Positions 1,313 to 64,000 of a DNA stretch of 64,000 nt are shown here, piece after piece. The translations under genes were made by a program, and so were the position numbers. A model generated the notes under the pieces. That model did not search any database and was not told the DNA's origin. It saw only the letters and a list, made by a program, of their open reading frames with translations. Source of the stretch: Marinovum algicola. GTDB taxonomy: Bacteria; Pseudomonadota; Alphaproteobacteria; Rhodobacterales; Rhodobacteraceae. Location: positions 310,001 to 374,000 of the forward strand of contig NZ_FNYY01000001.1 of assembly GCF_900109145.1 (NCBI RefSeq), given 5' to 3'. How positions within the stretch are numbered: position 1 is the stretch's first letter; the number at the start of each line of letters is the position of its first letter.

Positions 1313-2308
1313 TCAGTTGTCGAGGATCGCGCGCACGCGGTCGTACAGGCCTTCGGACCAGTCCGGGAACTTGGTATAGACTTCGGCCGTGGCGTCCTGG
1401 AAGGCCGCGATGTCGACGTCGCGGTTGAATGTGACGCCTTCGGCCTCGAGCTTGGAAATCCACTCTTCTTCCGAGTTCAGCATAACGTCGGTCATGAAGA
1501 CACCGGCCTTGTTGGCCTCTTCGTCCAGCACGATCTGGATGTCCTCGGGCAACGAGGCGAAGAGATCGGCGTTCATCATCAGCCCGGTGAAGCCCTTGAA
1601 ATGGCCGGTGAGCGAGATGGTTTTCTTGGTCTCGTGCAGCTTGGCGCCGTGGATCGAGGGCAGGGGCGCCTCGGCGCCATCGACCACGCCGGCGGACAGC
1701 GCCGAATAGACCTCACCCCAGGCGACCTGCGTCGGGCGCGCACCCATGGCGTTGAAGGTTTCCACCCACATGATGTTGGGCGGGGTGCGGAAGGTCATGC
1801 CTTCGGTGTCCGCGGGGCTGGAGATCGCCTTGTCGGCCAGCATGTGGCGCGCGCCGAACAGCCAGTTGAGCGACAGCAGTTCGATGCCGGATTCGCTGCG
1901 CAGCCGGTCCTTCATCTCGGCATAGAGATCGCTTTCCACGATTTTGGTGAAATCGCGGGGATCATCCATCAGGTAGGGCCCGCCCAGAACGCCGAAATCG
2001 GGCACGAAATCGCTGAGATAGCCGGGGTCGGAGATCGAGATGATCGGCGCGCCTGCGCGGATCTGCTCAAAGACTTCCGGGTTCGATCCGAGCTGCGCGT
2101 TGGCAAAGATCTGGATCGCCACCGCGCCGTCGGTGCGGGTCTCCACGTTCTTTGCGAACTCTTCCATCGCCTGCTGGATCGGCTCCTTGTCCGAGGTCAC
2201 ATGGGCAAGCCGAAAGGTGTATTCCGCCGCTCCGGCCGCCAAGGGGGCCAGGGCGAGGCCGGCAATGCCGATCAGGCGGGAAGCGCGGCCAATAAGTTGA
2301 AAAGTCAT
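1313..2308 (-). CDS. TRAP transporter substrate-binding protein (DctP family)
   Basis: Periplasmic binding protein that captures the substrate for the DctQM permease. The 331 residues begin with a signal peptide (cleavage likely after AAGA-A, about residue 27). The core motif FRTPPN about residue 175, followed by MGARPTQVAWGEVYSAL and GVVDGAE, holds the conserved Arg that normally binds the substrate carboxylate. The ATG at 2308 was chosen because it starts the signal peptide and has a GGAGGAAAATTC leader; upstream in-frame codons would add a non-signal extension. It is first in the operon and divergent from the gene at 2471, sharing a 162-base control region. Confidence 0.95.
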   Translation of the reverse strand: MTFQLIGRASRLIGIAGLALAPLAAGAAEYTFRLAHVTSDKEPIQQAMEEFAKNVETRTDGAVAIQIFANAQLGSNPEVFEQIRAGAPIISISDPGYLSDFVPDFGVLGGPYLMDDPRDFTKIVESDLYAEMKDRLRSESGIELLSLNWLFGARHMLADKAISSPADTEGMTFRTPPNIMWVETFNAMGARPTQVAWGEVYSALSAGVVDGAEAPLPSIHGAKLHETKKTISLTGHFKGFTGLMMNADLFASLPEDIQIVLDEEANKAGVFMTDVMLNSEEEWISKLEAEGVTFNRDVDIAAFQDATAEVYTKFPDWSEGLYDRVRAILDN

Positions 2309-2397
2309 GAATTTTCCTCCTCCGATTCGGTGGTCGGCGGCAGTGTCTGCGCCGTTTCCGAGTCTGGGATAACACAGGAATTTCAAATTTAGAAGTA

Positions 2398-2415
2398 ATT
2401 TTGATACTTGAAAAT
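2398..2415. promoter_or_regulatory. AT-rich imperfect palindrome in the divergent dctP / 2471 control region
   Basis: ATTTTGATACTTGAAAAT is an 18-base imperfect palindrome (ATTTT-n-A, T-n-AAAAT) inside the AT-rich patch 2380-2420, the only AT-rich stretch of this 162-base intergenic region. It could be an operator for one or both divergent genes. No regulator gene lies next to it, so the binder is unknown. Confidence 0.35.
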
Positions 2416-2470
2416 AGAATCCGGATTCGGCAAGCAAGAAGGCAAGCCGCAGAATCGGGAGGGCAAGCGC

Positions 2471-3583
2471 ATGAAATTGAGGGGCATGACCTGGGATCAT
2501 CCGCGGGGCTTCGACCCGGTTGTCGCCGCGTCAGAAGTGTTTCGCGCCGAGACCGGCGTCGAGATCGTCTGGGACAAGCGGTCGCTTCAGGCCTTTGCCG
2601 ATGCGCCGATTGCCGAGATGGCGGAGCGCTACGATTTCATCGTGCTCGACCATCCGCACGTCGGCCAGATTGCCGAAACCGGCGCGCTGCTGTCGCTGCC
2701 GATGCCTCAAGATGCCTCGGCCTCGCTGGGTGGGTCGGCAGAGAGCTATTTCTGGAACGGCAAATGCTGGGCCTATGCGGTGGATGCGGCCTGCCAGATG
2801 GCGGCCTATCGCCCCGATCTGGGCCCCGATCTGCCGCGCCACTGGGAGGATTTCCTGGGCGGGGAGGCCGCGCGCTTCCGTCCGCTGACGCCGCTGCTGC
2901 CGGTCGATGCCTTCGACATGCTGATGACGCTTGTCGCCGGGCGCGGGGGTGCGGTGATGCCGGTGGGCCCGGCGCATTTCGTCTCTGACGACAATGGACT
3001 CTATGCGCTCGGGGTTCTGCGCGCGCTCTACAATCTCGGGCCGGATGAGCAGGTCGACATGAACCCGATCGGCGCGCTGGAGGTGCTCTCGACCACCGAT
3101 GATTTCGCCCTGTCGCCCTGCCTGTTCGGATACGTCAACTACGCCCGCCCCGGATTTCGCCCGCATCCCGTGGGCTATTTCGATCTGCCGCTCTGCGCCG
3201 GGCATTCCCGCGCGCGCAGCATCCTCGGGGGCGCCGGGATCGGCGTGTCCGCCAAGACGCGGCACCCCGAGGCCGCTATCGGTTTCGCGCAATGGATCAC
3301 TTCGCCCGAGGTGCAATCCGGCGTCTACCTGGACAACAATGGCCAACCCGCCAACCGCCACACCTGGCTGGCGCAGGCGGAAAACCCGGCGGTTGCAGGT
3401 TTCTTCAAGGGCGGCTTTCACACCATCGACAACGCCTGGACCAGGCCGCGCGACATCTGGTTTCTGGATTTTGTCGACGAGGTCTGTGCGATCATGCCGG
3501 ATTTCTTTCGCAGGGCGATCCCCGAGGAGCAGTTCCTCGCGCGGATCAACCAACTCTATCACCATCATCTTTGCGAGGCCTGA
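2471..3583 (+). CDS. Solute-binding-protein-fold protein without a signal peptide
   Basis: 370 residues resembling family-1 extracellular solute-binding proteins: an alternating alpha/beta layout, a DFIVLDHPHVG segment near residue 55, and a late GGAGIGVSAKTRHPEAAIGFAQWI segment typical of ABC sugar-binding proteins. The N-terminus is MKLRGMTWDHPRGFDPVVAA, which is polar and has no signal peptide or lipobox, so the product should be cytoplasmic. The start at 2471 has a GGGAGGG site 6 bases upstream; an in-frame ATG at 2408 adds only charged residues and no signal either. It heads the run SDR - MDR and lies 3 bases before the SDR. A sensor or ligand-carrier role is possible but is inference. 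Confidence 0.75.
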   Translation: MKLRGMTWDHPRGFDPVVAASEVFRAETGVEIVWDKRSLQAFADAPIAEMAERYDFIVLDHPHVGQIAETGALLSLPMPQDASASLGGSAESYFWNGKCWAYAVDAACQMAAYRPDLGPDLPRHWEDFLGGEAARFRPLTPLLPVDAFDMLMTLVAGRGGAVMPVGPAHFVSDDNGLYALGVLRALYNLGPDEQVDMNPIGALEVLSTTDDFALSPCLFGYVNYARPGFRPHPVGYFDLPLCAGHSRARSILGGAGIGVSAKTRHPEAAIGFAQWITSPEVQSGVYLDNNGQPANRHTWLAQAENPAVAGFFKGGFHTIDNAWTRPRDIWFLDFVDEVCAIMPDFFRRAIPEEQFLARINQLYHHHLCEA

Positions 3584-55452: not shown

Positions 55453-56193
55453 TCAGCGCGGCCGGATCAGCGACCTGTCGCATCGCGCGTCGATCCCGGC
55501 CAGATGCAGCATGTGCCAGGCCAATGCGAGGTTGCTCGAGATCACCGGCCGGCCGATCCGCGCCTCGGCCTCGGCCAGCACGTCCAGACAGCGCAGGTTG
55601 GTACAGGCGACAAACACCGCGTCGCAGGGTGTCTGCGCCGCCACGGCCTCGACCGCGCGCAGGATCGATGCGCCGGTGATCCGCGCCACCACCCGGTCGT
55701 TGCCCTCCTCGAACGAGCCGAAGCCCGCGATTTCGATCCCCGCCAGTTCCAGCTTGAGGCGCATCAGCGACGAGACTTCGGCGACATAAGGTGTCACGAA
55801 CCCCAGCCGCCGCACCCCCAGGGCGCGGCAGGCGGCAATGGTCGCGGCCAGCGGATCGGTGACCCTGGCGCCGGGGCAGGCGCGCTGCACCGCCAGCGCC
55901 ACCCGGTCCGATCCGATCACCGTCGAGGCCGAAGTGCAGCCGAACCCGATGGCGTCGAAATGCAGCGCCGGGGGCAGCAGCCGGGCCGAGGCGGGCAGCG
56001 CCGCCTCCATGTGGATCAGCGTCTCGGGGCGGATCTCGGGCACCATGGCGATGCGCGTGTGATAAAGCGCAACCCCGGGCCGAACCACGAGACGGGGAAA
56101 TTCATGCTCGAGCGTCTCGTCGGTCTCGAGCACGATCACCCCGAGATTGGCCCGCGTGCCGATGCCACCATCGGTGTCGAAATCGAGCTTCAT
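55453..56193 (-). CDS. Asp/Glu racemase-superfamily protein (EutA/maleate-isomerase-like)
   Basis: 246 residues. Two active-site cysteines in the usual places: Cys86 (AIGFGCTSAS) and Cys197 (VFVACTNLRC). The GTRANLGVIVLETDETLEHEF start resembles the ectoine-utilisation protein EutA and arylmalonate decarboxylase/maleate isomerase relatives. It probably acts on a carboxylate by proton transfer. It is the last gene of a coupled three-gene set (M20 - M24 - this), joined to the M24 gene by an ATGA overlap. Confidence 0.83.
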   Translation of the reverse strand: MKLDFDTDGGIGTRANLGVIVLETDETLEHEFPRLVVRPGVALYHTRIAMVPEIRPETLIHMEAALPASARLLPPALHFDAIGFGCTSASTVIGSDRVALAVQRACPGARVTDPLAATIAACRALGVRRLGFVTPYVAEVSSLMRLKLELAGIEIAGFGSFEEGNDRVVARITGASILRAVEAVAAQTPCDAVFVACTNLRCLDVLAEAEARIGRPVISSNLALAWHMLHLAGIDARCDRSLIRPR

Positions 56194-57356
56194 GCGGCCG
56201 CTCCGATCACCGGAAGCTCGGGCGGCGCGCGCTCTGTCAGAAGCGCCGCCCCCTCGGCCCGCACCACGATGTTTTCCTCATGCACCATGATCCGCCCGTC
56301 GCCATAACTCAGCGAGGGCTCCAGCGTCAGCACCATGTTCTCGGAAATCACGGTTTCGTCCCAGGCGGCGAGCGAGGGGCCTTCGGTGAGCTGCATGCCC
56401 AGCCCATGCCCCAGCCGCCCGATATCACCGCCGCTCTCGCCGATCACCGCCTGCATCGCCCGAAACACCTCGCGGCAGCTGGCGCCGGGGCGGGCGGCGG
56501 CAATCCCGGCCTCGGTGGCGCGCCAGAGCCGATCATGGGCGCGGCGGGCGGCGTCGCCGGGGGGGCCGATGGCGAAGTTGCGGTCGAAATCGCAGAAATA
56601 GCCGTCCCATGTGGCGCCGGTGTCGAGCATCAGGATATCGCCGCGTGCCAGCGGCCGGCGCGTGGGCGGCGAGATCACGTCGCGGTAGCCGCCGGTCTCG
56701 GCTCCGCCAACCAGATAAGGCACATCATCGGCTCCCTGCGCCAGCGCCGCGCGGCGAAAGGCGCGGAACAAATCTTCCAGCGGCTGGCCTTCGCGGACGA
56801 TATCCGCGACGCTTGCGAAGGTGCGCGATCCGATGGCGCAGATATGCGCGATCTTGGCGATCTCGGCTTCGGATTTCACCATCCGATGCCTGCGCAAGAG
56901 CGCGGTGGCATCGGCGATCCGCATCCCCGCCAGGCCGGCCAGCAGCCTTTCGTAATCGCCAAGCGGCATCCGGAGATGCGTCTCGTGGCCTTTCATCAGG
57001 CCCAGGGCCTCGCGCCGCGCGGCAAGCGGCGCGAGAAGTTCGGTCAGCAGACTGATGCCATCGTCCCCGGGGGTGGGGGCGGGCCAACTGCGGATGTCGT
57101 CGAGCCAGGTGGCGCGCATCAGCGCGGCGCCGATTTCGGGAATGATCGCAACGGGTTTGCCCTCGACCGGCACAAAGAGAAACCAGGGCCGCGTCGGGCT
57201 TTGCCAGAAGGCGGTGTGGAAACCGCTGAAATAGCGCACCTCGGCTTCGGTCGTCAGCAGCAGGCCCGCCAGGCCGGCGCGGGCCATGGCCGCCTGCGCA
57301 CGGGCGGTGCGGGCGGCGTATTCCGCCGGAGCAAAGCCGCGCGGCGGAGCCGTCAT
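56190..57356 (-). CDS. M24 family metallohydrolase (ectoine hydrolase DoeA/EutD- or Xaa-Pro-peptidase-like)
   Basis: 388 residues: creatinase-type N-terminal domain and pita-bread catalytic domain. All five metal ligands are present: Asp245, Asp256, His317, Glu346 and Glu360. Length and the neighbours (EutA-like protein, amidohydrolase, AsnC) fit DoeA/EutD, which opens the ectoine ring, but an ordinary dipeptidase cannot be excluded. Coupled to both neighbours by ATGA overlaps. Confidence 0.85.
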   Translation of the reverse strand: MTAPPRGFAPAEYAARTARAQAAMARAGLAGLLLTTEAEVRYFSGFHTAFWQSPTRPWFLFVPVEGKPVAIIPEIGAALMRATWLDDIRSWPAPTPGDDGISLLTELLAPLAARREALGLMKGHETHLRMPLGDYERLLAGLAGMRIADATALLRRHRMVKSEAEIAKIAHICAIGSRTFASVADIVREGQPLEDLFRAFRRAALAQGADDVPYLVGGAETGGYRDVISPPTRRPLARGDILMLDTGATWDGYFCDFDRNFAIGPPGDAARRAHDRLWRATEAGIAAARPGASCREVFRAMQAVIGESGGDIGRLGHGLGMQLTEGPSLAAWDETVISENMVLTLEPSLSYGDGRIMVHEENIVVRAEGAALLTERAPPELPVIGAAA

Positions 57357-58501
57357 GCGCCCGGCTCCGGGGGCAGCCGGTTGCGCACCAGCTGGACCCA
57401 GAGATCCGCGCCGATCGGCAGAAGCGCGTCGTTGAAATCATAGTCCGAGGCATGCAGCGGCTGGCCGTGTCGTCCGCTTTCGCCATTGCCGAGCAACAGG
57501 AAGCAACCGGGCCGGGCGGCGGCGAAATGGGCGAAATCCTCGGAAAAGCTCATTGGCTCACGGTCGCGGATCAGCGCAAGCCCCGCCGCCTCGGCGGCGC
57601 GATAGACCGCTTGGGCCGGCTCGGCGGCATTGATCGTCTCGACGAATTGCGTGTCAAAGGTGACCTCGGCCCTGATATCATGTGCCGCCGCCACGCCTTC
57701 GGCGATCTGCCGCATCAGCGCCTCGACCCTGAGCCGGGTCTCCGGCGACCGGGCGCGAAAATCGCCCTTGAGCCGGGCCCGGCCGGGCAACACGTTGCGT
57801 TGCCCGTCGGTCCGGAATTCGGTGACCGAGACCACCGCGCCGCTGCCCGGCGGCAGCTTGCGCGCGACGATGGTTTGCAGGGCGAGCACGATCTCGGCCG
57901 CCACGGTCAGCGCATCGACCCCGACCTGCGGCATCGAGGCATGGCCACCCCGGCCGGTGACCGTGATCTCGAACAGGGTTTCGCTTGTGCAGATCACGCC
58001 GGCGCGGGTCGAAACCTGGCCCAGCGGGGCGCCGGGCAGGTTGTGGAGGCCATAGACCTCGTCAAAGGCTGCCCGCGCCAGCAACCCTTCATCCAGCATT
58101 GCCTGCGCGCCAAGCCCGTGTTCCTCGTTGGGCTGAAACAGGAACACCACCGTGCCGTCAAATCCCTGTTCCCGTGCCAGCCGCTCGGCGGCGCCCAAGA
58201 GCATGGCGGTATGGCCATCATGGCCGCAGGCGTGCATCACGCCGGGGGTGGCGGACACAGGGCCATGGGGCGCGGTCTCGGTGATCGGCAGCGCATCCAT
58301 GTCGGCACGCAGCGCGATGGCCCGGTTGCCACGCCCCGCGCGCAGCAGGCCGACAACGCCCGCGCCTTCCTGCACCTCGAGCCCGAGCGCGCGCAGATGC
58401 TCGGCCACCAAGGCCTTGGTGCGGGTCTCGTGAAACCCCAGCTCGGGGTTGCGGTGCAGATCCTGGCGGATCCGGGTCAGTCGGGTTTCGAAATCACTCA
58501 T
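57353..58501 (-). CDS. M20 family amidohydrolase (DoeB2/hippurate-hydrolase-like)
   Basis: 382 residues. Metal-binding residues Cys92 and His94 (HACGHDGHTAM), Glu127 (QPNEEHGLGAQAM), and His in VYGLHNLPGAPLG; dimerisation-domain segment GRGGHASMPQVGVDA. It removes an acyl group from an N-acyl amino acid. In this context N-acetyl-diaminobutyrate or N-acyl-diaminopropionate is likely. I start at ATG 58501; the frame extends upstream but only with non-homologous residues. Confidence 0.88.
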   Translation of the reverse strand: MSDFETRLTRIRQDLHRNPELGFHETRTKALVAEHLRALGLEVQEGAGVVGLLRAGRGNRAIALRADMDALPITETAPHGPVSATPGVMHACGHDGHTAMLLGAAERLAREQGFDGTVVFLFQPNEEHGLGAQAMLDEGLLARAAFDEVYGLHNLPGAPLGQVSTRAGVICTSETLFEITVTGRGGHASMPQVGVDALTVAAEIVLALQTIVARKLPPGSGAVVSVTEFRTDGQRNVLPGRARLKGDFRARSPETRLRVEALMRQIAEGVAAAHDIRAEVTFDTQFVETINAAEPAQAVYRAAEAAGLALIRDREPMSFSEDFAHFAAARPGCFLLLGNGESGRHGQPLHASDYDFNDALLPIGADLWVQLVRNRLPPEPGA

Positions 58502-58654
58502 GCTGCGGACATCCGGTGGTTTTCCCAGTGATACCGCGCAATTCTGCATCTTTGGCATCGAGTTTCGCCGGGTTTGACAGAAAAACTTGCACCAAGCGGG
58601 CCGGTTCAGATGTCTTTCGCCTGCACGACGGAGTTATCGCTCAGTACTTTGGGC

Positions 58655-59119
58655 TCAGATCGGCAGGCTCAGGCCGATTTTGGTGCGTTCCATCGCCACC
58701 GAAGTGCGGAAGCGGCGGACGTTGGAATTCTCGAAAAACAGCCGATGGGTCAGCGCCTCGAAGTCCTGCATGTCCTCGGCGGTGCAGATCAGGATGAAAT
58801 CGGCCTCGCCGGTTACGTAGTAACATTGTTGGACCTGCGGTTCGGCCTTGGCGCGTTTGCGGAACAGGTCGAGCTGTTGCAGCGACTCGCGGTCCAGCTC
58901 GACCATCACGATAAAGGTCATCTTGCAGGCGAATTTCGCCTGATCGAGCACCGCGACCTCCTTGGCGATCAGGCCCGAGGCGCGCAGCCGCTTCAGCCGC
59001 CGCTGCACCGAGGGCACCGACAGGTTGCAGGCCTGCGCCAGATGCTCGAGCCCGGCGCGGCCGTCGTTCTGAAGCTCTCTGAGGATTGTCAGGTCTGCCG
59101 CATCGAGATCGTCGTTCAT
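58655..59119 (-). CDS. Lrp/AsnC family transcriptional regulator
   Basis: 154 residues. N-terminal HTH (DAADLTILRELQNDGRAGLEHLAQACNLSVPSVQRRLKRLRASGLI) and a C-terminal RAM domain (CYYVTGEADFILICTAEDMQDFE). It probably senses an amino acid or diamino acid and controls both the downstream M20-M24-EutA-like genes and the divergent ammonia-lyase. Ectoine-degradation loci commonly carry such a regulator (DoeX). Confidence 0.93.
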   Translation of the reverse strand: MNDDLDAADLTILRELQNDGRAGLEHLAQACNLSVPSVQRRLKRLRASGLIAKEVAVLDQAKFACKMTFIVMVELDRESLQQLDLFRKRAKAEPQVQQCYYVTGEADFILICTAEDMQDFEALTHRLFFENSNVRRFRTSVAMERTKIGLSLPI

Positions 59120-59219
59120 GAAGAAACCTCTCGCTTCCTGCCGTCAACGTGAAAGAATTTCTCGAGTTTAGGCGGAAGAACGAAAATTGGAAAGCGGCGC
59201 CGCCTGCTAGAAACACCCC

Positions 59220-60281
59220 ATGACCTTGTTTGAAAGTCCCGCGATGCCCGATGCCGACCCGCTCCGCTTCGATCCCGATGTGACCCGCGCGCTGGCGTTT
59301 TTTCGGGCGCAGCCGTCTTATGCCGTCTCGCCACTGATCGAAGTGACCGGCCCCGATGGCCTGGCCGTCTTGGTCAAGGACGAGACCGGGCGCATGGGGT
59401 TGGGCGCCTTCAAGGCACTGGGCGCGCCTTATGCGGTGGCCTGCCTGCTGGCCGAAGGCTGGAAGGCCGAGACCGGCGAAGTGGTGGCGCCGGCGCGGAT
59501 GGCTGAGCCGGAGTTCCGCGCGTTCACTGCGCGCCATAGCTTTGTCTGCGCCAGCGCCGGCAATCACGGCATGGGCGTTGCGGCGGGGGCAGGCGCCATG
59601 GGCGCACAGGCGCGGATCTATCTGGCCAGGACGGTGCCGGAGAGTTTTGCCGATCGGCTGCGCGGTCTGGGGGCCGAGGTGGTGCGCGCCGGCGCGGTCT
59701 ATGAGGACAGCGTCGCCGCCGCCAGCGCTGATGCCGCCCGCAGCGGAGCGACCTTGCTGGCCGATGGCACCTGGGAGGGCTACACCGAGATCCCGAAGTG
59801 GGTGATGGAGGGGTATTGCGTCATCGCCGAAGAGCTGCGCGCCGCCTTCGCGGCCTCTGGCGATTGGCCGACGCATGTCTATCTTCAGGCCGGGGTTGGC
59901 GGGTTGGCCGCGGCGATGGCGCATATGATCCGGGCGCACTGGGAAAAACAGCCAGAATTGATCGTCGTTGAACCCGAAGCCGCCGCCTGTCTGCGGGCCA
60001 GCCATCTGGCGGGGGCGCCCCGGCGGGGCGAGGGGCCCGAGACCAACATGGGCCGGCTGGATTGCAAGGCACCGTCGATCGTGGCCTGGGCGGCGCTCGA
60101 ACGTTGTGACGTGCGCTATGCGGTGCTGAGCGATGCCGAAGCGCAGACGGCCAGCACGACTCTCTCCGCGCTGGGCCTGGCCACCACGCCCTCTGGTGCG
60201 GCGGGATATGGTGCGCTGTGCAAGCAGCCGCCGCGCACGGCGGCCCGACCGCTGGTCATCGTTTCGGAAGGGCCGGCCTGA
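59220..60281 (+). CDS. Diaminopropionate ammonia-lyase-like PLP enzyme
   Basis: 353 residues of fold type II. PLP Lys65 (GLGAFKALGAPYA), phosphate and substrate loop SAGNHGMG at 112-119, and the glycine loop AGVGGLAA. The N-terminal region and TNMGRLDCK segment match 2,3-diaminopropionate ammonia-lyase, which yields pyruvate and two ammonia; it is about 45 residues shorter than the E. coli enzyme. No ribosome site precedes ATG 59220, so translation may be leaderless or begin at ATG 59244. Divergent from the AsnC gene. Confidence 0.82.
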   Translation: MTLFESPAMPDADPLRFDPDVTRALAFFRAQPSYAVSPLIEVTGPDGLAVLVKDETGRMGLGAFKALGAPYAVACLLAEGWKAETGEVVAPARMAEPEFRAFTARHSFVCASAGNHGMGVAAGAGAMGAQARIYLARTVPESFADRLRGLGAEVVRAGAVYEDSVAAASADAARSGATLLADGTWEGYTEIPKWVMEGYCVIAEELRAAFAASGDWPTHVYLQAGVGGLAAAMAHMIRAHWEKQPELIVVEPEAAACLRASHLAGAPRRGEGPETNMGRLDCKAPSIVAWAALERCDVRYAVLSDAEAQTASTTLSALGLATTPSGAAGYGALCKQPPRTAARPLVIVSEGPA

Positions 60282-60295
60282 GCCGTTGCCGCTGA

Positions 60296-61063
60296 TCAGC
60301 TCTCGGGAAAGAGCGCGCCGCGCAGCTTGACGGCGGCGGTCTGTAGGGTCGACTTGCGGGCAATCGCCTGCGCCAGTGAAACCCGCTGGGTCGGCGCGTG
60401 AAAGGCCAGCGCCGCGACGAACCGCCCCTGGGGATCGGTGACCGGCACGGCGATCGCCACCATGCCTTCGAGAAATTCCTCGCGGTCGAGCGAATAATCC
60501 ATCGCCGCGATCTGATCGAGCTCATCCAGCAGCAGGTCGGGCTCGGTCAGCGTCGTCTCGGTCATCCGCGTCAGCGGCAGCGCGGCCACGAATTTGGCCC
60601 GTGCGTCCGGCGCCAGGCTGGCCAGAAAGCATTTGCCGCTGGCGGTGCAATGGAACGGCACATTGGTGCCGACCGGAAACTGGATGCGAAAGGCCCAATC
60701 GGTCTCGACCCGGTCGAGATAGCGCATTCCGGTGTCCGCGGGCATCACGTAGTTCACCGTCTCACGCACTTCGCGCGAGACCTCGAGCAGGATCTGATGT
60801 CGGGCGATGTGATCGCGCGAGCTGTGCATCAGCCCCGACCCCAGTTCGCGCAACCGCCGCGACACCTGATACCGCCGATCCGTGCCCAGACGGGTCAGGA
60901 ACCCGTTGTTCTCCAAGGTGGCGCAGAGCCGGTGCAGCGTCTGCTTCGGCAGGCCCAGCTCTTCGTTGATTTCCGTCGCGGTCATGGCCCGGTCGCTTTT
61001 CCCAAGGATTTCAAGGATCAGCAGCGTCCTCAGATTGGGCGGTATCCGGTCTTGGTCAGCCAT
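60296..61063 (-). CDS. IclR family transcriptional regulator
   Basis: 255 residues. HTH LLILEILGKSDRAMTATEINEELGLPKQTLHRLCATLENNGFL at about 15-58; effector domain with VPFHCTASGKCFLASL, typical of IclR proteins. ATG 61063 is the first ATG; TTG 61081 would add six residues. Divergent from the GMC gene at 61171, with a 107-base region rich in inverted repeats between them. Confidence 0.93.
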   Translation of the reverse strand: MADQDRIPPNLRTLLILEILGKSDRAMTATEINEELGLPKQTLHRLCATLENNGFLTRLGTDRRYQVSRRLRELGSGLMHSSRDHIARHQILLEVSREVRETVNYVMPADTGMRYLDRVETDWAFRIQFPVGTNVPFHCTASGKCFLASLAPDARAKFVAALPLTRMTETTLTEPDLLLDELDQIAAMDYSLDREEFLEGMVAIAVPVTDPQGRFVAALAFHAPTQRVSLAQAIARKSTLQTAAVKLRGALFPES

Positions 61064-61077
61064 CGGGTTTGTCTCGA

Positions 61078-61090
61078 ACAAATTGTTTGT
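61078..61090. promoter_or_regulatory. Inverted repeat ACAAA-TTG-TTTGT near the IclR start
   Basis: Perfect 5-bp arms around a 3-base centre, 15 bases before the IclR start. Typical size and AT content for an IclR operator; probably autoregulatory and controlling the GMC-TRAP genes. Confidence 0.5.
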
Positions 61091-61126
61091 GGATTTGTAC
61101 GCGAATCATTGTAGCGTGCATACGTG

Positions 61127-61159
61127 GTAAAAATCGAGACCCTTGGTCCCGATTTTTAC
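61127..61159. promoter_or_regulatory. Long inverted repeat directly before the GMC ribosome-binding site
   Basis: GTAAAAATCG-a-GACC-ctt-GGTC-c-CGATTTTTAC, 14 of 15 pairs, ending 11 bases before the ATG at 61171. As DNA it may be an operator; as RNA it would form a stable hairpin whose 3' side abuts GGGGGAGG. Confidence 0.6.
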
Positions 61160-61170
61160 GGGGGAGGAAT

Positions 61171-62772
61171 ATGGAATTCGATTTCGTCATTGTGGGCGCC
61201 GGGTCCGCCGGCTGTGCGCTTGCCAACCGGCTTTCCGAGGACGGGCGCTACAGCGTGGCGCTGCTCGAGGCCGGGCCGCGTGACACCAACCCCTGGATTC
61301 ATATTCCGGTCGGCTATTTTCGCACCATGGGAAATCCGCGCAGCGACTGGCGCTATCGCACCGAGGCCGATCCCGGCATTGCCGGGCGGGCGATTCCCTG
61401 GCCGCGCGGCCGGGTGCTGGGCGGGTCGAGTTCGATCAACGGTCTGCTGTATGTGCGCGGCCAGCCTCAGGACTACGACGGCTGGGCACAGGCCGGTTGC
61501 CGGGGCTGGTCCTGGGACGAGGTTCTGCCCTGTTTCAAACGGGCCGAGCACTGGGAGGGCGAGGATCCGGACGGGCTGCGCGGGCGGAACGGCCCGCTTT
61601 CGGTCCAGACCTCGCGGCTCACCCGTCGGGTGGTCGACCGCTGGATCGAGGCGGCGCAGCAGGCCGGGTATCCGGCGGCGCGCGATTACAATGGCGCCGA
61701 TCAGGAAGGCGTGGGCTATTTCCAACTGACCATGAAGGGCGGCCGGCGCTGCTCTTCGGCGGTGGCCTACCTCAAGCCCGCGCGCCGGCGTCACAATCTC
61801 ACCGTCATCACCGACGCGCAGACCGAAAAGGTGCTGCTGGAGGCGGGCAGGGCGCACGGCGTACGGGTCCGCATCCGCGACACCTTTCACGAGATCCGCG
61901 CCCGCTCCGAGGTGATCCTGAGTGCCGGCGCCATCGGTTCGCCGCAGATCCTCATGCTCTCGGGCATCGGCGACGGCGACGAATTGCAGCGGCTGGGCAT
62001 CGGCGTGCAGGCCGATCTCAAGGGGGTCGGGCGCAATCTTCAGGATCACCTTCAGGCCCGCCCGGTGTTCAAGACCGATCTGAGCACGATCAACATCGAA
62101 ACCAGCAACCTGTTCAAACAGACGCGCATCGCCTTGCAATACGCGCTCACCCAGCGCGGACCGATGACCATGGCCGCCAGCCTGGGCACCGGCTTTCTCA
62201 AGACCGAGCCGCATCTGGAAACCCCGGATATCCAGTTCCACATTCAGCCGTTCAGCGCCGACAGCCCGGCCGAAGGTCCGCACCGGTTTTCGGCCTTTAC
62301 CGCCTCGGTGCTGCAACTGCGGCCCGAAAGCGCCGGTCATTTGCGCCTGCGCTCGGCCGATATGGACGATCACCCGGCGATCCATCCGAATTACCTGGCC
62401 ACCCCGACCGATCAGAAGACAATCGTCAAAGGTATTCAGATCGCGCGCAAGATTGCCGGTACGGATCCGCTCAAATCGCATATCATGGACGAACATGCGC
62501 CCGGCCCGGGCGTGGCCTTTGACGATGAGGCGGCCACGCTCGACTGGGCGCGGCGCACCGCGGTCACGATCTATCACCCGACGGGCACCTGCAAGATGGG
62601 GATCGATCCGATGGCGGTTGTGGACCCGAGGTTGCGGGTGCGGGGAATTGACGGGCTGCGTGTCGCTGACGCCTCGATCATGCCGCAAATCGTCAGCGGC
62701 AACACCAATGCCCCGGCGATCATGATCGGCGAGCGGGCCAGCGACCTGATACTGGAGGACACCGCAGGCTAG
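61171..62772 (+). CDS. GMC family FAD-dependent oxidoreductase (choline-dehydrogenase-like)
   Basis: 533 residues. FAD motif VGAGSAGCALANRL at 8-21, GMC signature WPRGRVLGGSSSINGLLYVRGQPQDYD, and C-terminal active site AVTIYHPTGTCKMG with SGNTNAPAIMIG. ATG 61171 follows GGGGGAGGAAT. It lies between an IclR regulator and a TRAP binding protein, so it probably oxidises the imported alcohol. No signal peptide. Confidence 0.93.
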   Translation: MEFDFVIVGAGSAGCALANRLSEDGRYSVALLEAGPRDTNPWIHIPVGYFRTMGNPRSDWRYRTEADPGIAGRAIPWPRGRVLGGSSSINGLLYVRGQPQDYDGWAQAGCRGWSWDEVLPCFKRAEHWEGEDPDGLRGRNGPLSVQTSRLTRRVVDRWIEAAQQAGYPAARDYNGADQEGVGYFQLTMKGGRRCSSAVAYLKPARRRHNLTVITDAQTEKVLLEAGRAHGVRVRIRDTFHEIRARSEVILSAGAIGSPQILMLSGIGDGDELQRLGIGVQADLKGVGRNLQDHLQARPVFKTDLSTINIETSNLFKQTRIALQYALTQRGPMTMAASLGTGFLKTEPHLETPDIQFHIQPFSADSPAEGPHRFSAFTASVLQLRPESAGHLRLRSADMDDHPAIHPNYLATPTDQKTIVKGIQIARKIAGTDPLKSHIMDEHAPGPGVAFDDEAATLDWARRTAVTIYHPTGTCKMGIDPMAVVDPRLRVRGIDGLRVADASIMPQIVSGNTNAPAIMIGERASDLILEDTAG

Positions 62773-62846
62773 CAACAGGAGACACCAGCCATTCCGGCGG
62801 CCTGGCCCGAAAGGGGCGGTCGTCGGGATACGACGACAGAGCAAGA

Positions 62847-62878
62847 CGGGCGGCGCTTTCAGGGAGGAAAGCCGCCCG
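62847..62878 (+). terminator. Hairpin between the GMC gene and the TRAP binding protein
   Basis: CGGGCGGC, 16-base loop, GCCGCCCG in the 190-base gap. No T-run. It may partly terminate or protect the upstream message. The rest of the gap shows nothing clear. Confidence 0.5.
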
Positions 62879-62962
62879 GTGACGACACGGCCGATCCAGC
62901 GCCTTCATCTTCGGCCCGGATAATAATAAGCGGAAGGCAAACGCATCATGGGAGGAAAATTG

Positions 62963-64000
62963 ATGTTCAGTCTCAAGACTTTGACCGTAGGGGCCGCGGC
63001 CCTTGCCATGACGGCCACGGCCGCTTTCGCCGAAACCGTGATCCGGGTGCAATCGGTGATCCCGGCGCAGGCCGACGAAGTGACCATGCTCAATGAATTC
63101 GCCGCCGATGTGGCGGCCCTGACCGGCGGATCACTCAAGATCGAGGTCTTGCCTGCCGGCGCCGTCGTCGGCGTGCGCGAAACGCTCGATGCGGTCGACA
63201 GCGGGCTGATCGAGGGCGGCTTTGCCTGGACGCACTATTGGTCGGGCAAGCACCCGGCGGCCATGCTCTTCGGCTCGCCCGTGGCAGGCGCCGGTGTCGG
63301 CATCGACAATATCGCCTTTGTGTCCTGGTTCCAGTACGGCGGCGGCAAGGAGCTCTATGACCAGCTCTGGGACGAGATGGGCGTCAACGTCAAGGGCTTC
63401 ATGCTGCAACCGGTGGGGCCGGAGGCGCTCGGCTGGTTCAAGGAGCCGATCGCCAGCATGGACGATTTCCGCAAGTACCGATTCCGCACGCCGCCGGGCA
63501 TCCCCGGCCAGACCTACAAGGATATCGGCGTCGCCTCGGTCGCCATGGGCGGCGGTGACATTCTGCCGGCGCTCGAGAAAGGCACCATCGACGCCGCCGA
63601 ATGGTGCTGCCCCAAGCCTGACAGCGTCTTCGGCTTCCAGAAGGTGCTGAAGCATTACTACCTGCAAGGTCTGCACCAGGTGGTGGTGAACGCCGATCTC
63701 TACATCAACGGCGATGTCTATGACGGGCTGACCGACCTCGAGAAAAAGGCGCTGGAAGTGGCCGCCAATGCCTCGCTGTCGAAAGCCATGTCGTATCGCA
63801 TCTACGAAAACGGCAAGGCGCTGAAGGATCTGACCGAGAACCACGGCGTCATCCTGCATGACACCCCCGAGGATTACTTCTCGGAGTACATGACCGCCGC
63901 CAAGGCCGCGCTGGAGACCAATGCCGCCGAAAACGAATTCTTTGCGGAAGTCTGGCAGAGCCAGAAGGATTTCGCCGAGATCGCGGTGCCGTTCTGGGCC
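62963..64000 (+). CDS. TRAP transporter substrate-binding protein (DctP/TakP type), 3' end missing
   Basis: 346 residues visible, open at the window edge. Signal peptide LKTLTVGAAALAMTATAAFA-E; mature part ETVIRVQSVIPAQADEVTML, then FRTPPGIPGQTYKDIGVASVAM with the carboxylate-binding Arg and LEKGTIDAAEWCCPKPD, close to the 2-oxoacid-binding TakP group. ATG 62963 is preferred because GGGAGG lies 8 bases upstream; ATG 62948 is in frame. Its permeases should follow beyond the window. Confidence 0.92.
   Translation, partial: MFSLKTLTVGAAALAMTATAAFAETVIRVQSVIPAQADEVTMLNEFAADVAALTGGSLKIEVLPAGAVVGVRETLDAVDSGLIEGGFAWTHYWSGKHPAAMLFGSPVAGAGVGIDNIAFVSWFQYGGGKELYDQLWDEMGVNVKGFMLQPVGPEALGWFKEPIASMDDFRKYRFRTPPGIPGQTYKDIGVASVAMGGGDILPALEKGTIDAAEWCCPKPDSVFGFQKVLKHYYLQGLHQVVVNADLYINGDVYDGLTDLEKKALEVAANASLSKAMSYRIYENGKALKDLTENHGVILHDTPEDYFSEYMTAAKAALETNAAENEFFAEVWQSQKDFAEIAVPFWA

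Follow-up and report, generated by a model that had tools for sequence, protein, structure and literature searches.

In the described pathway, 5-hydroxyectoine is converted by EutD and EutE into hydroxylated N-acetyl-diaminobutyrate (hydroxy-ADABA) and probably into hydroxylated diaminobutyrate (hydroxy-DABA) (PMC8739950, PMC13188858). Growth of Ruegeria pomeroyi on 5-hydroxyectoine also needs EutABC, the precise activities of which are unknown (PMC8739950). A candidate variant of this system was analyzed in a 64,000-nucleotide stretch of DNA of the marine Rhodobacteraceae bacterium Marinovum algicola (contig NZ_FNYY01000001.1, positions 310,001 to 374,000), referred to here as the window. A cluster of five genes at 55453-60281 of the window encodes a relative of EutA (EutA'), a pita-bread hydrolase of the M24 family (M24), an M20 amidohydrolase (M20), an AsnC/Lrp-type regulator (AsnC) and a pyridoxal phosphate (PLP) enzyme of the diaminopropionate (DAP) ammonia-lyase superfamily (DpaL). 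DpaL-M24-EutA' is a widespread conserved three-gene module, to which the window version adds M20 and AsnC, and the gene context in relatives ties the module to the catabolism of ectoine, a protectant against salt. Judged from sequence, the module would be a variant for breaking down a cyclic diamino acid of the ectoine type, in the likeliest case 5-hydroxyectoine or one of its products, a reading that is put forward tentatively, with somewhat less than even confidence.

Scanning 84,980 species genomes with EutA' identified 77 loci, for the most part in Rhodobacterales. M24 adjoins EutA' in 67 of these and DpaL is found close by in 59; 55 loci have all three genes, and the linkage exceeds chance. 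M20 is present at 29 of the loci and AsnC at 36. Linkage was counted from tblastn matches, because the codon-bias caller used on the relatives misses or shifts some open reading frames (ORFs); L047 and L148, which appear to be one contig, were counted once. The cluster takes two forms. The larger has M20, usually AsnC, and a DpaL of either short or canonical length. Its short-type DpaL is divergent and 65-70% identical to that of the window, and the AsnC of such window-type loci is 72-84% identical to the window AsnC and occupies the same position. The second form is a bare DpaL-M24-EutA' cassette, 40-58% identical. Either DpaL type, short or long, can occupy the same gene context. Among the matches listed, cassette-type EutA' is found in 121 of 248 Rhodobacteraceae genomes sampled at about one per genus, and the M24 subfamily occurs in 40 of 289 genomes spread across the class. 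Four loci (L076, L101, L128 and L129) carry a lone cassette-type EutA' without M24 or DpaL. In the Shimia group (L064, L066, L069, L072, L074 and relatives) the flanks of the cassette carry a gene of the 3-hydroxyisobutyrate dehydrogenase family and one for a 4HBT thioesterase.

Several relatives place the module beside recognized ectoine genes. At L191 (genome G036) nine genes, M20, long DpaL, M24, EutA', PotA, a solute-binding protein (SBP), PotB, PotC and EutD, follow each other on one strand with all gaps at or below 204 bp, and the EutD scores 650 bits, above its cut-off of 613. At L047, from an alphaproteobacterial metagenome-assembled genome, DpaL-M24-EutA'-EutD is followed by one gene and then EutE, with EutD at 746 bits and EutE at 558 bits (cut-off 402.7); the congener L149 has the same start of the gene order. 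L136, L189 and L190 combine EutB, EutC, an aminotransferase, DpaL, M24, EutA', a Pot-type importer and a divergent EutD-like gene, and L187, L188 and L121 resemble the L136 layout without EutB and EutC. The EutB of L136 reaches 427 bits (cut-off 413). Its EutC-like protein scores 448 bits against the NF006141 cut-off of 408 and 412 bits against the TIGR02992 cut-off of 472.

Transporters give a second connection. In six relatives (L011, L013, L029, L034, L039 and L085) a window-type cluster adjoins a tripartite ATP-independent periplasmic (TRAP) transporter with a binding protein 37-40% identical to UehA/TeaA; the L085 protein is a partial gene call, the best piece of which is 37% identical to UehA. 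The five full TeaA-like SBPs, among them that of L011 (4777-5907), keep E9, R144, W167 and N184 and have His in place of F66 and Tyr in place of F187 (mature TeaA numbering), all positions that contact the ligand in TeaA and UehA. His and Tyr, being more polar, would suit a hydroxylated ligand. For the Pot-type SBP the nearest match is 8jv1 (243 bits), deposited as a spermidine/putrescine-binding protein, followed by gamma-aminobutyrate (GABA)-sensor, agropine and mannopine binding proteins. An equation of 8jv1 with DmpX, a dimethylsulfoniopropionate-binding protein, was dropped, as the DmpX paper gives another PDB code. The initial annotation had described the cluster as an ectoine-like variant. 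The connection to ectoine catabolism is supported, through EutD and EutE (L191, L047), EutB and EutC (L136) and the UehA/TeaA-like TRAP transporters (L011 and five more), and is not provable from the window alone; the identities given to M24 and M20 are not supported, as described below.

The association is also seen across genomes. In the Rhodobacteraceae sample an EutD-like protein accompanies cassette-type EutA' in 94 of the 121 genomes with the cassette and occurs in 54 of the 127 without it (odds ratio 4.7), and the closer EutD-like group alone in 64 and 26, respectively (odds ratio 4.4); the counts are of the matches listed, from which nine EutD-positive genomes and a small number with EutA' are missing. 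Seven EutA'/EutD-like pairs lie within 15 kb of each other, where random placement would give about 0.7.

In the M. algicola genome itself, a genome-wide profile search found no EutA, EutB or EutC above cut-off; the best EutB reached 206 of 413 bits and the best EutC 158 of 472. An EutD-family protein with intact active-site motifs is encoded on another contig (G000:C29) and scores 562 bits against the cut-off of 613. It is accompanied by an ArgE-type M20 and a Pot-type ATP-binding cassette (ABC) importer that compares with that of L136 at 86% for PotA and 77% for the SBP. In this region (L096, G000:C29:188000-207000) the ArgE-type M20 and the importer stand where EutE and UehABC/EhuABCD would be. 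A close relative of this EutD-like protein is present in 90 of the 248 Rhodobacteraceae genomes, among the matches listed. No close copy of the TeaA-like SBP was found in the genome (best 31% identity), and the Ehu importer was not searched for. The initial annotation had proposed a search for transport genes elsewhere; candidates are the Pot-type importer on the other contig and, in the six relatives, the TRAP transporters with TeaA-like binding proteins.

EutA' belongs to the family of EutA (TIGR02990) and is 33-40% identical to the EutA of canonical clusters, that is, those with EutA next to UehA, EutB, EutC, EutD and EutE. Its score of 173 bits is below the cut-off of 318, a cut-off that is not clean, since the EutA of the canonical L105 cluster scores 250 bits. 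Both catalytic-type cysteines are kept: C86 and C197, the pair expected of two-cysteine Asp/Glu racemases, are invariant in 78 sequences. In a tree a 14-member clade (support 1.0) includes the nine canonical EutA sequences, and a second clade (support 0.96) has 110 sequences of the cassette and M20 types; the smallest clade with just the canonical nine is weakly supported (0.56). The tree places EutA' as a sister of EutA in a separate clade.

In the proposed route, the solute would be imported by a TeaA-like TRAP transporter or a Pot-type ABC importer, neither adjoining the window copy. M24 may then hydrolyze the ring amidine or an amide of the hydroxylated compound, and M20 may remove the acyl group to yield a beta-substituted diamino acid, for example hydroxy-2,4-diaminobutyrate. 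EutA' would invert a stereocenter, as proposed for EutA, and DpaL, by analogy with its family, would carry out a PLP-dependent beta-elimination to a 2-oxo acid and ammonia. The cassette is predicted to substitute for EutABC, or EutBC, alongside an EutD-type hydrolase encoded elsewhere in the genome: it ties a relative of EutA to a PLP enzyme of fold type II and an M24-family hydrolase and, in relatives, lies next to EutD-EutE, the usual site of eutABC. With its own M20, the window version could be a self-contained branch that proceeds, in this presumed order, by ring or amide hydrolysis, deacylation, epimerization and beta-elimination. It is more doubtful that DpaL-M24-EutA' forms a second route for the hydroxylated branch, in which a metal-dependent M24 and a dehydratase-like member of the DAP-lyase family replace EutB and EutC and the carbon goes to a 2-oxo acid and ammonia, not via diaminobutyrate and aspartate; such a route would occur in about half of the Rhodobacteraceae genera.

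A number of points weigh against an ectoine-type substrate. None of the five window proteins reaches an NCBIfam cut-off of the ectoine families, nor that of the DAP lyases, and the neighborhood of the window cluster has no eutD or eutE and no assignable transporter. The cassette is solitary in most Rhodobacteraceae, and 27 of the 121 cassette genomes have no listed EutD-like protein. The P values of the co-occurrence are too small, as the genomes share ancestry. The sister clusters carry a canonical-length DAP ammonia-lyase. Finally, we know of no precedent for the proposed M24 step.

The DAP ammonia-lyases of the sister clusters bear on a possible, less favored and rather unlikely alternative, in which the substrate is a cyclic or N-acylated 2,3-diaminopropionate that M24 opens, M20 deacylates, EutA' epimerizes and DpaL converts to pyruvate and two ammonia. 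2,3-Diaminopropionate is the known substrate of DAP ammonia-lyase. The PLP enzymes of L018 (475.8 bits) and L191 (477.1 bits) are canonical-length DAP lyases, above the cut-off of 276, with the Asp120-containing motif TDGNH, and the interchange of short and long DpaL in one context suggests one shared reaction type. The fold agrees: an AlphaFold2 model of the window DpaL (predicted local distance difference test, pLDDT, 92.2) matched DAP ammonia-lyases best (Z 42.0) and then threonine deaminases (Z 39.2). Its score against PRK08206, 265.1 bits, is just below the 276-bit cut-off, and K65 and D182 align with K77, the PLP lysine, and D189 of the E. coli enzyme (4d9g). In the same alignment A113 is at the position of Asp120, which we take to be catalytic in the E. 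coli enzyme. In a motif survey all short-type DpaL homologues had ASAGNH, where the long type has ATDGNH. One argument against diaminopropionate is that the DpaL of the window and those of the solitary cassettes carry ASAGNH, as in threonine/serine dehydratases, and not TDGNH. Although of the long type, the L191 cluster likewise leads into EutD, and the context of EutD, EutE, EutB, EutC and TeaA-like proteins points to ectoine or hydroxyectoine. We also know of no environmental supply of such a diaminopropionate derivative.

The M24 and M20 proteins bear on a further alternative: a generic salvage route for dipeptides or N-acyl amino acids, made up of an M24 peptidase, a hippurase-type M20, an amino-acid racemase and a Ser/Thr dehydratase-like enzyme, to which the ectoine neighbors in some genomes would be incidental. 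It would fit the solitary state of most cassettes and the score of M20 against the broad amidohydrolase subfamily TIGR01891 (294 bits, cut-off 153.75). Structural alignment of the AlphaFold2 model of M24 (pLDDT 90.9) did not tell EutD (Z 40.3) from Xaa-Pro dipeptidase (Z 40.2), the two being equally near (Z within 1). D245, D256, H317, E346 and E360 are invariant in 65 M24 homologues and align with the five pita-bread metal ligands of M24 Xaa-Pro dipeptidases, an assignment made by alignment and family knowledge. All members have T324 at the position of the prolidase HExP histidine and have lost the PH histidine, an invariant GY-x-D-x-ISP stretch taking its place. A plain prolidase is disfavored, since M24 is without both catalytic histidines. 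Together with this new invariant motif, the repeated independent association with eutD, eutE, eutB, eutC and UehA/TeaA-like SBPs makes generic salvage improbable. The initial annotation would have been contradicted by plain dipeptidase and hippurase families without co-regulation; instead, M24 lacks the prolidase histidines and conservation extends to the cluster as a whole. The annotation's equation of M24 with DoeA/EutD is rejected on a score of 53 bits against the cut-off of 613 (NCBIfam) and on a different active site, and its equation of M20 with DoeB2, the N-acetyl-diaminobutyrate deacetylase, is not supported at 327 bits against 550 (NF038260). M20 gave no match to the NCBIfam EutE profile. 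M24c, another protein of the M24 family, is found repeatedly next to the Pot-type importer and the cassette (L136:2-1162, L121:9677-10912, L109:11979-13001 and L191:5041-6258); it has no NCBIfam match at 1e-20.

Least probable is another ectoine-like solute entering through the same transporters, such as an N-acetylated diamino acid osmolyte or an opine-like compound, which the changes at F66 and F187 of the TeaA-like SBPs (implying a ligand other than plain ectoine) and the nearest relatives of the Pot-type SBP would suit, and against which stand the EutD, EutE and EutB of linked loci, all over the curated ectoine cut-offs.

The features of the window cluster are listed in the table below. 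All five ORFs lie where the initial annotation had placed them, including the divergent DpaL, and their domain identities agree in Pfam and NCBIfam; the absence of the usual EutB/EutC, transaminase and ectoine transporter that it reported holds locally. M20, M24 and EutA' are probably translationally coupled, because ATGA 4-base overlaps occur at both the M20/M24 and the M24/EutA' junctions. AsnC lies 153 bp upstream of M20.

Table. Features of the five-gene cluster, in window coordinates.
Feature	Position	Strand	Assignment
EutA', Asp/Glu-racemase-fold protein	55453-56193	-	Pfam Amdase; TIGR02990 below cut-off; C86 and C197
M24 pita-bread hydrolase, distinct subfamily	56190-57356	-	Pfam Peptidase_M24 and Creatinase_N
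M20 amidohydrolase/deacylase	57353-58501	-	Pfam Peptidase_M20; DoeB2 is the nearest curated equivalog, below cut-off
AsnC/Lrp-type regulator	58655-59119	-	Pfam AsnC_trans_reg and HTH_AsnC-type
Divergent asnC/dpaL intergenic region, 100 bp	59120-59219		Read directly; expected (putative) promoter/operator region
DpaL, fold-type II PLP enzyme, DAP ammonia-lyase superfamily, short type	59220-60281	+	Pfam PALP

The adjoining IclR, GMC and DctP genes (60296-64000) are disfavored as members of the cluster: they do not recur in relatives, and this DctP is not TeaA-like (24% identity). The stretch, which continues in L097 (G000:C22:373501-386000), encodes an IclR regulator, a GMC oxidoreductase and a TRAP DctP and is a separate catabolic cluster, possibly for a sulfonated diol. 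Its GMC oxidoreductase scores 599 bits against the choline dehydrogenase cut-off of 605 (PRK02106), and the continuation of the contig has ORFs that by eye resemble a LacI regulator, a universal stress protein and a histidinol-dehydrogenase-like protein. Another TRAP binding protein (window 1313-2500, minus strand) is 30% identical to TeaA and is without the ligand-contacting Glu and Asn of TeaA.

The DpaL-M24-EutA' module is apparently undescribed. In the literature searched, which did not extend to subscription journals and supplements, no paper had both hydroxyectoine and diaminopropionate, and a 2026 survey of ectoine clusters is silent on diaminopropionate and on importers of the polyamine type. 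If the ectoine-type reading is true, a common marine nitrogen- and carbon-recycling route would have been overlooked, given cassette-type EutA' in 121 of 248 genomes among the matches listed. A natural variant of this kind, with its EutA relative, exchanged PLP enzyme and additional, different M24, would help to pin down the step that EutA serves. One more candidate class of ectoine transporter would be represented by the Pot-type ABC importer that accompanies EutD-like genes.

Individually, the window proteins resemble characterized enzymes with defined differences. The fold of M24 is common to the EutD/DoeA ectoine hydrolase (PDB 6twk; Z 40.1-40.3) and creatinase (1chm; Z 37.4). EutD-type proteins, however, have FFEI and PHLTW motifs and are without the metal ligands, whereas M24 has all five ligands and neither motif. 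DpaL shares with E. coli YgeX/DpaL (PDB 4d9i; Z 42) the fold, the PLP lysine and the equivalent of Asp189; it differs in the Ala at Asp120 and in being about 45 residues shorter. DoeB2 remains the nearest curated equivalog of M20, which falls below its cut-off. As a whole, the cluster has in common with the canonical ectoine/5-hydroxyectoine cluster (PMC13188858, PMC8739950) the EutA family, a fold-type II PLP enzyme (DpaL in the window, EutB in the canonical cluster), an M24-fold hydrolase, an amide deacylase and AsnC; the match of AsnC to the AsnC/DoeX-type regulator is weak, the AsnC family being common. Relatives of the module also match it in the UehA/TeaA-like TRAP transporter, EutD, EutE, EutB, EutC and the aminotransferase. 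No EutB, EutC, EutD, EutE, enuR-type regulator or transporter was recognized in the window cluster, which has two new members, DpaL and an additional M24 with metal ligands, and M20 instead of EutE.

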